The notes under the pieces are model-generated. The model made no database searches and was not told where the DNA came from. It saw only the letters and a list, made by a program, of their open reading frames with translations. From positions 1 through 25,236 of IMG/VR virus record IMGVR_UViG_3300023087_000088: 25,236 nt of DNA. One strand, 5' to 3'. Shown here piece after piece: positions 7,505 through 22,427 of this stretch (positions are counted from its first letter, which is position 1; every line of letters starts with the position of its first letter). The stretch comes from a virus. Position numbers and translations under genes: made by a program.

Positions 7505-7526
7505 ATGTATCTCCTAATCTAAAAAG

Positions 7527-7550
7527 CAATGGGGGATTGCTCCCCCATAT
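7527..7550 (-). terminator. Hairpin terminator after gene 32
   Basis: On the minus strand ATGGGGG and CCCCCAT (7542-7548 and 7529-7535) form a 7-bp stem around the loop AGCAAT, followed by TGCTTTTTAG. It lies 8 bases after the gene 32 stop and before uvsX. The T-run begins three bases after the stem, so termination is probably partial. Confidence 0.75.
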
Positions 7551-7556
7551 AATTTG

Positions 7557-8522
7557 TTATTGTCCTTGACGGTTTCTAATCATTGCTAGAATGTCTTGTG
7601 CATTACCTTCTGCAGGAGCCGCTTCAGCCGCAGGTGCTGCCGCTGGTGCTTCTTCTACTACAGGTGCTGCCTCAGGTGCTGGTGCAGGAGCAGGAGTAGT
7701 AGCCGCTGGTGCTACTGGATCGCCTGTACGTGCCGCCATACCTGCTGGACGGAAGTATTGTCCCCAACGGTCCATGTCAAATGCTTCACCGTCTACTGAC
7801 GCTTCAAACATTTCTTGCATGACCTTAAGTTCTACTTCACCTGGCTTTTTAGGTAGGAAGTCATTTAGATTAAACAAGCCGTTGTTGTTAACTGCATTCA
7901 TTTCTGCATCAGTTAGTGGACGCTCTCTACGAGCCCACTGTGAAGTAGAGTAGTCTGCGTATCCGCCTTTTGAAGTTTTGTTAAGACGGAAGTCAACACC
8001 AGCAGTATAATCTGTTGGCAATTCTTCCATATCAGGATCCATAAGAGCCTGTTTAATGATTTGGAAGATTTGAGGACCAATAATAAATCTACGGATTGGA
8101 TTTTCCGGAGTAGTATCCTCTGCAATTGGATTGTCAGTTACAAAGCCTTGGAAAATATAAGAACGTTTTTTCCAGTACTTACGACCCATATCTTCTAGAC
8201 TTGGATCTTTAAACCAGCCACGTACTTCATTAAGAATGTTACATGTCTCGCCGTACATTTCCATACACGGAATTTGTACTTGTACTGGCTTGCTACCAGT
8301 TTCACCTTTCACACCTGCGAAAGGAAGTTTAATCATCAAACGTTCTACCCAAAAGAACGTATTATCTGCGTTGCCGTCTGGCAAGAAACGCATAGTAGAA
8401 GTTTCACCTTCTTTCATGTTCCAAAATGGGTAAATTGCGTTGTCGCCGCCGCCTGAAGAATTACCTGATGAACGGTTTTCTTGTTCTTTGAGCTTTGCTC
8501 TGATTTCTGCTAATGATGCCAT
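7557..8522 (-). CDS. 32: Single-stranded DNA-binding protein gp32
   Basis: A 321-aa gp32-type ssDNA-binding protein, near the 301 aa of T4 gp32. The N-terminal basic region (IRAKLKEQENRSS) corresponds to the cooperativity segment. The core runs from AIYPFWNMKEGETSTMRFLPDG through KRSYIFQGFVTD to about residue 250. A long Ala/Pro linker at about 260-305 leads to the short ending QDILAMIRNRQGQ. Only two cysteines are present (residues 86 and 94), so the Cys3-His zinc site of T4 gp32 is not complete. An excellent AAGGAGG lies upstream of the ATG. It is driven by a sigma70-like promoter at 8588-8615 and has a structured leader. It coats ssDNA and coordinates UvsX, UvsY and the replisome. Confidence 0.93.
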   Translation of the reverse strand: MASLAEIRAKLKEQENRSSGNSSGGGDNAIYPFWNMKEGETSTMRFLPDGNADNTFFWVERLMIKLPFAGVKGETGSKPVQVQIPCMEMYGETCNILNEVRGWFKDPSLEDMGRKYWKKRSYIFQGFVTDNPIAEDTTPENPIRRFIIGPQIFQIIKQALMDPDMEELPTDYTAGVDFRLNKTSKGGYADYSTSQWARRERPLTDAEMNAVNNNGLFNLNDFLPKKPGEVELKVMQEMFEASVDGEAFDMDRWGQYFRPAGMAARTGDPVAPAATTPAPAPAPEAAPVVEEAPAAAPAAEAAPAEGNAQDILAMIRNRQGQ

Positions 8523-8532
8523 AGTTATGCCT

Positions 8533-8580
8533 CCTTAAATTATTGCCTATGTCTATGTGCCTTTAAAGTGTATAGCACAT
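8533..8580 (-). promoter_or_regulatory. Possible pseudoknot in gene 32 leader covering the ribosome site
   Basis: In the predicted leader, ATGTGC (8580-8575) pairs with GCACAT (8560-8555). In the 14-base loop, CTTTAAA (8568-8562) can pair with TTTAAGG (8539-8533), seven pairs with one G-U, and this includes part of the AAGGAGG ribosome site. This is an H-type pseudoknot at the extreme 5' end of the message. T4 gene 32 is autoregulated through a 5' leader pseudoknot where gp32 starts to bind. The role here is inferred. Confidence 0.5.
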
Positions 8581-8587
8581 ACTGTAT

Positions 8588-8615
8588 ACTATACACTCTT
8601 AAGATCAAAAGTCAA
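8588..8615 (-). promoter_or_regulatory. Sigma70-type promoter for gene 32
   Basis: On the minus strand TTGACT (8615-8610) and TATAGT (8593-8588) are 16 bases apart. Transcription is expected to start near 8582, giving a leader of about 60 bases. A 9-bp inverted repeat, AGTGTATAG (8567-8575) and CTATACACT (8589-8597), overlaps the -10 box and could be an operator. No late box is present, so this is read as an early promoter. Confidence 0.6.
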
Positions 8616-8636
8616 GTGTTTTTTTGACTTTTTTTT
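8607..8636 (-). terminator. Weak hairpin after the 791-aa gene
   Basis: AAAAGTCAA (8607-8615) and TTGACTTTT (8624-8632) form a 9-bp AT-rich stem with an 8-base loop. On the minus strand only four T follow within the stem end; the longer T-run is on the plus strand, where no gene needs it. Its right arm also supplies the -35 of the gene 32 promoter. Termination is possible but unproven. Confidence 0.35.
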
Positions 8637-8645
8637 GCCTTTTTA

Positions 8646-11021
8646 TTAAAGATTCGCCAATTCGCGAATTCTATTGAGCTCGTTTGAGCTCTGATTCATC
8701 TCAACAAACTTGTGTTGTACTGCTTCGATGAACTTTTCTGCTACAGGAACGTATTTGTCACCGTAGTCTTTTTCTACCATTGTTAGAACTGCTGTTTCAC
8801 CTTTAGGGAATGATCCAGTTTCTCTATCAAAGTAAGAAAGAATAAATTCTGTTACTGGTACTTTAGCATCTCCGCTTTCTTGTAGTGATGTACCTGTTGG
8901 TTGTGGATCAATGTCATCAAATAGTAGTCCAAAGAACCATTTAATAACACGAAGACCGCCGATAATTGTTAAAAGTACTAGTCCTAGTGGCAACCAGTTT
9001 TGAGCCGCAATTTTTGCAATTTGGCTGATTGTGCTACCTTCAAATGATGGTAGAGCATCTTGTAGTTTCTTAGCCGCATCGCTTTGTGTTACTGCCTCAA
9101 TGCCTGACTTGGCTAGATCGGTTGCTTTATCCATTGCACTGTCTAAGCCGCCGGTGCCGCCTGTAACTTGATTAGCAACATCGTCAACTTTGCCTGTAAC
9201 TGCACCAACTGCTTGGTTGACCTTGTTAGCAATGCTATCGTTTGCTGTAGCAATCGTATTTTGTAAAGTGTCGAGCTTATCGCCAACTGCTCCAATATTA
9301 TCTGAAATGCTATCTTTCAAATCGTTTTGCATATATTTTGCCGCACCAATAGTTGCACCAGTTGCCACAAGTGGTGCCGCAACGTTTGATTTTCCAATAG
9401 CACTTGCCGCTTGGCCAGCACCTTTGGCCAACCCCTTGGCCGCATCACCTGCTACTTTACCTGCGGCCGATGCCGCATCACCTGCTACTTTACCTGCGGC
9501 CGATGCCGCATCACCTGCTTTGCCAGTCACTTTTGAAATAAATGATTGACTTGGCATTTCAATACCTTTGTCAATTGTTTTACCTAATCCCGGAGCAACT
9601 TCGTCAGCTTTCTTTTGAGCCGCATCGACTGCAATTTTGTTAATATCTGCAAGTGCGTCTGCTTGTTGTGCTGTATCTGGAGCACCTTTTGGAGGTGTAC
9701 CGTCGGCTGCTTTACCTGCCACACTTGCCGCATCGTCAGCACCTTTGCCAAATGCTTTGCCAATTGCGTCAATAGCGTTCTTGCCTGCTTTAGCAGTTTT
9801 GCTTAAAATAAAACTAAGTCCGCCTTCGTTAAGTTGTGCTTCAGCTAGTTGCGATTCGCTTAAACTAGAAGTATATGCTTTCCATAACTTTGTATGGCTC
9901 ATATTGTTAAATTGCTCTAGTGTTGTTACGTTTTCGATAACAAAATCAATGTAGTCTTTCTTTTCTGTCTTGTGTTCTGCAAAGTTACCTAAACTTTCAT
10001 CGAACATCTTGTCAAAATCGGGATTCATGTTTTCTCCTTTTGTTGCGTCTGTTAACTCTTCTAAAGATAGTTCTTTTGTCTTGCTGTTCTCACTTACTAG
10101 TTTATAGATATAAGGAAAAACATCTTTTAGTTCTTCATTAAACTGTTTAACAGTAAGTTGCTCAATCCAATCCCCTTGAATATCTTCCGGAACAACAACA
10201 TCGTCCTCAGGAGAAAAGGCTTCGTAATATTCTCTGTAAAAACTTTCTTTTTGAAGTTTATGAATAGTGGTTTTAATTGTGTCTAAACGTTCGTTTACGG
10301 CATCAGCATAACCACCTAACCCTTCAGCCATTACAGCTGATCTGTTCATGTAAGTTTTAAACTTTCTTAGTTTTGATAATTCTTCAGAAAGTCCAATTAC
10401 ATGTTTACCAAAGTCGTCGTACAAGTTACCACCTTCACTAACGTGACGTGCTATTGCTCTTGCACCACTTAAATGCTTGTAAGGATATTTAAATCTTTCA
10501 CCATCGGCGTTTTCAATATGAATACTTTTAATCTTTGTCGATCTATTTGTTTCATAATTCATACTTTCTGTATGTGTAATAATTAACTTTGAACTGCCAA
10601 TATCTTGGAAGCTCTTTTTACTTGTGCCGTATAATTTTGATTCGCTCATTGTGGTGTCTCCGAATTTTTCCTTACGTAAATATTCGTAATCTCTTCTATC
10701 TAAATTGCTTTTCGTAATATCCCTTATATCAAAGTTCAGCATACGCTTTTTAGCAAACATTCTTAGTTCTTTTAAAAATGAATACCAGTTATCTTTGCCT
10801 ATCTGATCTTCATCAAACAATTTCTGACTGTACATAATAGTTAAAGATTTTTCATCAAGAGCTAAATTTACGTTTTGTCCGTTTGTAATCTTTACATCAA
10901 AAAACCTAGCTTGGCCAGGTTCGTTAGTAATTGTGCTTTCTTGATTGCCAAGAGTTACGTTTTGATAACGTCCTCTAATTTTATCAAATAAATCTTTCGC
11001 TATGATATCTAACTTGTCCAT
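8646..11021 (-). CDS. Large repeat-containing, membrane-anchored phage protein
   Basis: A 791-aa protein placed between gp17 and gene 32; I recognise the type from marine T4-like phages but not its function. Residues 1-250 form a globular basic domain (for example KYPYKHLSGARAIARHVSEGG). Residues 260-420 are helical and charged. Residues about 420-670 are rich in Ala, Gly, Lys and Asp, including 11-residue repeats of the GKVAGDAASAA kind at about 507-530, which resemble LEA-type repeats. One membrane segment, LPLGLVLLTIIGG with RVIKWFFGLLF after it, lies near 677-699, and about 90 soluble residues follow. The ATG at 11021 lies 4 bases after a late box. An upstream in-frame ATG at 11069 lies inside gp17 and upstream of the promoter, so it is not preferred. 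Late timing suggests a virion, internal head or lysis-stage protein; this is inference. Confidence 0.75.
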   Translation of the reverse strand: MDKLDIIAKDLFDKIRGRYQNVTLGNQESTITNEPGQARFFDVKITNGQNVNLALDEKSLTIMYSQKLFDEDQIGKDNWYSFLKELRMFAKKRMLNFDIRDITKSNLDRRDYEYLRKEKFGDTTMSESKLYGTSKKSFQDIGSSKLIITHTESMNYETNRSTKIKSIHIENADGERFKYPYKHLSGARAIARHVSEGGNLYDDFGKHVIGLSEELSKLRKFKTYMNRSAVMAEGLGGYADAVNERLDTIKTTIHKLQKESFYREYYEAFSPEDDVVVPEDIQGDWIEQLTVKQFNEELKDVFPYIYKLVSENSKTKELSLEELTDATKGENMNPDFDKMFDESLGNFAEHKTEKKDYIDFVIENVTTLEQFNNMSHTKLWKAYTSSLSESQLAEAQLNEGGLSFILSKTAKAGKNAIDAIGKAFGKGADDAASVAGKAADGTPPKGAPDTAQQADALADINKIAVDAAQKKADEVAPGLGKTIDKGIEMPSQSFISKVTGKAGDAASAAGKVAGDAASAAGKVAGDAAKGLAKGAGQAASAIGKSNVAAPLVATGATIGAAKYMQNDLKDSISDNIGAVGDKLDTLQNTIATANDSIANKVNQAVGAVTGKVDDVANQVTGGTGGLDSAMDKATDLAKSGIEAVTQSDAAKKLQDALPSFEGSTISQIAKIAAQNWLPLGLVLLTIIGGLRVIKWFFGLLFDDIDPQPTGTSLQESGDAKVPVTEFILSYFDRETGSFPKGETAVLTMVEKDYGDKYVPVAEKFIEAVQHKFVEMNQSSNELNRIRELANL
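9439..9519 (-). repeat. 33-bp tandem repeat coding for 11-residue units
   Basis: Two identical 33-base units (9439-9471 and 9472-9504), followed by a 15-base partial third, lie inside the 791-aa gene. Each codes for 11 residues of the GDAASAAGKVA type. The perfect DNA identity points to recent duplication or slippage, and the frame is kept. Confidence 0.9.
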
Positions 11022-13170: not shown

Positions 13171-13175
13171 GAAAA

Positions 13176-13183
13176 TATTTACA
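13176..13183 (-). promoter_or_regulatory. T4-type late promoter box TGTAAATA
   Basis: TGTAAATA on the minus strand, 5 bases before the ATG of the 2OG-oxygenase-like gene, without a Shine-Dalgarno. Its first base is the end of the T-run of the terminator at 13183-13209, so promoter and terminator abut. Confidence 0.55.
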
Positions 13184-13209
13184 AAAAAATAGCGGCCGAA
13201 GCCGCTATT
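13183..13209 (-). terminator. Terminator with TTCG tetraloop
   Basis: On the minus strand AATAGCGGC and GCCGCTATT form a 9-bp stem around the tetraloop TTCG, followed directly by a run of T. This is a textbook intrinsic terminator, 17 bases after the stop of the 273-aa gene. Confidence 0.9.
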
Positions 13210-13226
13210 ATGAGTTTATTTTTGAT

Positions 13227-17324: not shown

Positions 17325-17328
17325 ACTG

Positions 17329-17336
17329 TATTTAGC
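17329..17336 (-). promoter_or_regulatory. T4-type late promoter box GCTAAATA
   Basis: GCTAAATAC on the minus strand, 4 bases before the ATG at 17324. No Shine-Dalgarno is present. It lies just after the gp19 terminator and would drive the tube-fold, 129-aa and gp4 genes. Confidence 0.65.
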
Positions 17337-17357
17337 ACATTAGATTATGTACGCAGA

Positions 17358-17386
17358 TAAAAAAAAGGGCGAGAAAAAATCGCCCT
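17358..17386 (-). terminator. Intrinsic terminator after gp19
   Basis: On the minus strand AGGGCGA and TCGCCCT form a 7-bp GC-rich stem around a T/C loop of seven bases and are followed by eight T. It lies 24 bases after the gp19 stop and before the late box of the next unit. Confidence 0.92.
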
Positions 17387-17410
17387 TCCTTATTAAGGTA
17401 AAGTCAGTTA

Positions 17411-22372: not shown

Positions 22373-22398
22373 TAAGATTCCTTTGTAAAATAAAATAT

Positions 22399-22427
22399 AT
22401 TATATGATATTTTATTACAAATGTCAA
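22399..22427 (-). promoter_or_regulatory. Consensus sigma70 promoter for the kinase
   Basis: On the minus strand TTGACA (22427-22422) and TATAAT (22404-22399) match the sigma70 consensus exactly with a 17-base spacer. Transcription should start near 22392, 20 bases before the ATG, with AAGGAA in the leader. The -35 overlaps the stop codon of the 214-aa gene. Confidence 0.85.

Follow-up and report, generated by a model that had tools for sequence, protein, structure and literature searches.

Does the leader of a giant-phage single-stranded DNA binding protein (SSB) gene fold into a pseudoknot that hides its own ribosome site? The question is raised by a gp32-type SSB gene on the minus strand of the window, a virus contig of 25 kb (Table 1). 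In T4 and RB69, gp32 nucleates on a 5′-terminal fold of the gene 32 leader and spreads over an open ribosome site (PMC535899). The original prediction held that an H-type pseudoknot would act more directly here, its second stem including the Shine-Dalgarno (SD) sequence. The gene identity from which it started was borne out: the product matches PHROG 1192 (E 1.6e-61) and PHROG 224 (E 1.8e-8), and a profile built from 17 SSB relatives matches the solved T4/RB69 gp32 structures 2a1k, 2atq and 1gpc (E 2.6e-5 to 3.8e-5). On the 3′ side follow genes matching the UvsX and UvsY families, and the three genes are a T4-like recombination block. On the 5′ side, a structural-protein gene on the same strand ends at 8646; the gap between it and the SSB gene measures about 120 nt. 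An Rfam scan over the window and a DNA-level search of the leader against phage records each gave zero matches.

Table 1. Features in and around the SSB leader of the window
Feature	Position	Strand	Details
SSB gene, gp32-type	7557..8522	minus	321 aa; ATG 8522
uvsX-like gene	7504-6416	minus	3′ of SSB gene; UvsX family match
uvsY-like gene	6193-5738	minus	3′ of uvsX-like gene; UvsY family match
Open A+U-rich linker	8523..8553	minus	holds CATAGGCA 8551-8544 and SD AAGGAGG 8536-8530
Stem 1 hairpin	8554..8581	minus	8 bp; UAUGUGCU 8581-8574 / GGCACAUA 8561-8554
Stem 2 of the original prediction	8568-8562 with 8539-8533	minus	judged coincidental
Promoter-straddling hairpin (a:a′)	8565..8599	minus	8599-8585 with 8579-8565
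Promoter, sigma70-type	8588..8615	minus	-35 TTGACT 8615-8610; 16-nt spacer; -10 TATAGT 8593-8588
Second dyad, around the -35 box	8632-8624 / 8615-8607	minus	AAAAGTCAA / TTGACTTTT; MFE -6.9, z -3.4

We compared this leader with two sets of relatives. The marine set comprises 103 distinct leaders chosen for their TTGAC and GTGC/GGCA-like motifs, whose occurrence within the set is therefore partly due to selection; pairing statistics between other segments are independent of them. The non-marine set, separate from the marine 103, comprises 62 non-redundant leaders. Pairing was assessed by an own-vs-cross permutation, in which the segment of each leader is paired with its own partner segment or with those of other leaders, and pseudoknots were sought with a simple scanner that, in a control run, recovered the known pseudoknot of T4 gene 32.

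Firstly, we established the layout of the leader. The SSB promoter carries 10 of the 12 sigma70 consensus positions, and its predicted transcription start, at about 8583-8580, falls directly upstream of stem 1. This agrees with the claim that the fold sits at the 5′ end of the predicted message, and it places the predicted start upstream of 8575, not downstream of it. A TTGAC-17-TATAAT-like element occupies the same place in the marine relatives, a set that had been collected using TTGAC. The motifs of the linker follow one another in the same order in the relatives, and pairing between linker and SD in the 103 marine leaders is below expectation (z -4.2). Extra optional hairpins, GTAGCAATGTAGCTAC for example, are found between stem 1 and CATAGGCA in several leaders (L010, L028, L030, L043, L126 and others). 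The second dyad around the -35 box gave own-vs-cross scores of z 6.0 in the marine and z 4.2 in the non-marine set.

Secondly, we analysed stem 1. Its bases had been read correctly on the minus strand (ATGTGC 8580-8575 with GCACAT 8560-8555), and it proved longer than the 6 bp originally given, with an MFE of -6.5 kcal/mol (8582-8555). A core of 4-5 bp, GUGC(U)/(G)GCAC, recurs in most of the 103 relatives, and the cells of the stem are paired in 79% of cases; when the stem is slid, this share is 49% at most. Columnwise covariation was not significant in the marine leaders, because the core is nearly invariant and the register shifts in some relatives; in a few, a shifted stem, GUA..UGC with GCA..UAC, takes its place. 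The two arms scored z 2.2 in the own-vs-cross comparison of the marine leaders (b:b′), and the 5′ hairpin of the RNA started at the gene's own promoter scored z 7.3 in the 62 non-marine leaders. Stem 1 as predicted thus stands: from the comparison of leaders it is real and conserved, mainly by invariance of sequence and not by covariation.

Thirdly, we assessed the second stem. Here too the bases (CTTTAAA with TTTAAGG) and the loops of 6, 1 and 15 nt are correct, and the geometry is legal. The complete knot reaches an energy of -9.8 in the pseudoknot scan, close to the T4 gene 32 control (-9.25) and attained by about 0.5% of shuffles, as would be expected if a pseudoknot at 8580-8533, stabilised by SSB, stopped translation by taking the SD into its second stem. 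When stem 1 was held fixed, however, stem 2 was equalled by 240 of 3000 shuffles, which implies that the signal of the scan stems from stem 1. The median of the conditional p of stem 2 over the 103 leaders is 0.7. Pairing of the stem 1 loop with downstream sequence in these leaders is slightly worse than in crossed pairs (z -2.2), its pairing with the start of the coding region is without support (z -1.0), and alternative loop partners sought in the linker, the SD and the coding start found no support either. Together with the avoidance of SD pairing by the linker, these results leave the direct SD-hiding design unsupported; we judge stem 2, on sequence comparison, to be a coincidence of one genome, and the pseudoknot that would use it to be very improbable. 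Hence the likeness to the T4 operator extends to the gp32-type gene, the 5′-end fold and the conserved stem 1, and stops short of an SD-including pseudoknot: stem 1 is conserved in relatives and stem 2 is not. Compensatory changes, looked for in relatives, gave nothing for stem 2; the covarying partner of the loop lies upstream, in the promoter.

That partner forms one arm of a hairpin that straddles the promoter (a:a′). In the 103 marine leaders, the stem 1 loop pairs with sequence lying between the -35 box and stem 1 at z +13.7, and the equivalent pairing in the 62 non-marine leaders scores z 9.5. The core of the hairpin in the window is 9 bp, all Watson-Crick (AGTGTATAG 8597-8589 with CTATACACT 8575-8567), which wobbles extend to 14-15 bp; its MFE of -16.2 kcal/mol (z -5.2) compares with the -6.5 kcal/mol of stem 1. 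Stem 1 and a:a′ are mutually exclusive in the window, since a:a′ takes the 5′ arm of stem 1. RNA started at the gene's own promoter lacks the upstream arm, and therefore a:a′ is possible only in RNA started further upstream.

The same dyad could be read as a DNA operator, bound by a dimeric repressor at the -10/start region, and not as an RNA hairpin. Its overlap with promoter elements is seen in nearly every relative, the upstream arm covering the -10 box in the window and varying in position relative to the promoter among relatives; in a second marine class this arm is displaced upstream by about 10 bp, into the spacer (index 8 vs 18), which amounts to one helical turn, and dyads also occur in and around the early promoters of a related phage. 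Yet the arms vary freely while staying complementary, with 74 distinct stem pairs, and a U-tract follows the 3′ arm in many relatives. Moreover, each set contains 11 G.U and 3 A.C mismatches inside a:a′ (pooled 22:6), as against 15 G.U and 18 A.C in mismatched control partners; a binomial calculation by hand from the pooled counts gives p of about 0.004, an optimistic value because the sequences share ancestry. A dyad read by a protein in DNA would treat both mismatches alike, so the excess of G.U over A.C argues that a:a′ probably pairs in the sense RNA, and a symmetric DNA operator seems to us unlikely.

We then considered whether the straddling hairpin is simply the terminator of the upstream gene, within which the gp32 promoter evolved, the 5′ hairpin serving as a stabiliser of the mRNA. 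By our own reading of the pairing results, some 17 among the 62 non-marine leaders have a terminator-like look, with a long stem and a T-rich tail after the 3′ arm, and in the non-marine relative L278 a standard terminator scan called a 13-bp terminator-like hairpin (508-539) that contains the -10 box (517-522); a further leader with a larger loop (L379) was not called. No other terminator-like site is present in the gap of the window. Against this, the marine group, the window included, lacks the U-tract and still pairs at the z of 13.7 given above. The hairpin of the window is followed by no U-tract and is therefore not an intrinsic terminator; nor did a search of 8480-8700 detect any GC-containing stem with a U-tract. 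We regard this explanation as plausible, if short of probable. Elsewhere in the window, terminator-like hairpins with T-runs lie in the minus-strand gaps 7505-7556 (between SSB and uvsX), 13171-13226 and 17325-17410, and so differ from the hairpin in front of the SSB gene, which has no U-tract.

Because the two folds exclude each other, and because some relatives look terminator-like while the window has no tail, a promoter placed inside an RNA hairpin is the mechanism that we consider best. The -10 region of the gene's own sigma70 promoter would also encode the 5′ strand of the hairpin, with the 3′ strand just past the start site. RNA from this promoter, devoid of the 5′ strand, is predicted to fold the small 5′-terminal hairpin, stem 1, and to keep the A+U-rich linker and the SD open. 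Read-through RNA from the upstream structural gene, if it is made, would instead form the stronger straddling hairpin at the expense of the 5′ arm of stem 1, and this hairpin may silence, terminate or process that RNA. The arrangement would separate the SSB gene from upstream transcription, and the 5′-terminal fold with its open ribosome site could serve as an SSB operator of the T4 kind, SSB binding the 5′ hairpin and repressing its own translation by analogy with gp32. Taken as a whole, this two-part explanation, a promoter inside an RNA hairpin and a 5′-terminal fold with an open SD, is in our view the rather probable one.

Known systems offer counterparts to both parts. Like the gene 32 operator of T4, T2 and RB69, the window combines a gp32-family gene with a predicted 5′-end fold equal in length (about 28 nt) and an unpaired A+U-rich stretch carrying the SD. 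Unlike that operator, which is putative here, it has no supported second pseudoknot stem (the candidate is at chance level and unconserved, with a scanner that recovers the T4 knot), it has AGGCA motifs in the linker in place of repeated UUAAA, and it has the straddling hairpin upstream. In T4 gene e, late promoters are embedded in the sequence that gives rise to the 5′ strand of an inhibitory RNA structure (PMC3014915). As in gene e (also soc, 49 and I-TevI), the SSB promoter of the window, with its predicted start, occupies DNA that specifies the 5′ strand of a conserved RNA hairpin, which only read-through RNA can therefore form. The promoter is sigma70-type, however, whereas those of T4 are late; some relatives have a U-tract; and the 3′ strand (8579-8565) covers the start of the leader and neither the SD (8536-8530) nor the start codon, pairing between the upstream part of the read-through RNA and the SD giving z -0.4, that is, no measurable sequestration of the SD. 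Bacterial intrinsic terminators that overlap promoters are matched by non-marine relatives such as L278, which have a stem and U-tract with the -10 box inside, unlike the window and its marine relatives. The literature on overlap of promoters and terminators in phages yielded nothing directly comparable. Overall, the SSB leader resembles the promoter-in-hairpin layout of T4 gene e more closely than it does an SD-hiding pseudoknot.

Scanning of SSB leaders elsewhere returned two H-type pseudoknot candidates, one in Pseudomonas phage PA5oct (L082; UAGUUUUGC/GCAAAACUG with AACCC/GGGUU) and one in Vibrio phage 2.275.O (L085; UUGUAGG/CCUACAA with CGUUGU/ACAACG). Both are stronger than the knot of the window, with none of 200 shuffles as good, and both lie just after a promoter, clear of the SD and no more than about 90 nt ahead of the SSB start codon. 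They thus stand at the predicted 5′ end of an SSB transcript outside the T4-like phages. The arms of the PA5oct pseudoknot are identical in four genus-mates; the Vibrio phage SSB, used as a query, found no further relatives. We tentatively propose, as a possibility that we would not call likely, that gp32-type genes across a large non-T4 group of giant phages have a two-state 5′ region: mRNA from the gene's own promoter would expose a 5′-terminal hairpin or pseudoknot as operator for autogenous repression, and read-through RNA would be switched into the exclusive straddling hairpin and be terminated or silenced. The SSB leaders form a large covarying set in which PA5oct and Vibrio phage 2.275.O are culturable test cases, and an upstream hairpin common to many distant phages links the position of a replication gene's promoter to the folding of its RNA.

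Promoters associated with dyads were also seen at other genes. A second promoter of the window, TTGACA-17-TATAAT in the stretch 22373-22427 on the minus strand, precedes a dNMP kinase gene and lies within the dyad TTTGTAATAAAATAT/ATATTTTATTTTACAAA; like that of T4 gene e, this dyad has a 3′ arm extending to the SD, and the fold is no better than shuffles. In a related phage record (G001, that of leader L071), an apparent early region at 11.6-23.3 kb (L320-L338) carries about 20 near-consensus sigma70 promoters; in many of them, inverted repeats lie within the -35/-10 region or span it (z about 3.4). The early leaders of this record share a motif, ACATAGGGCAAACA, that is similar to the CATAGGCA of the SSB leader.
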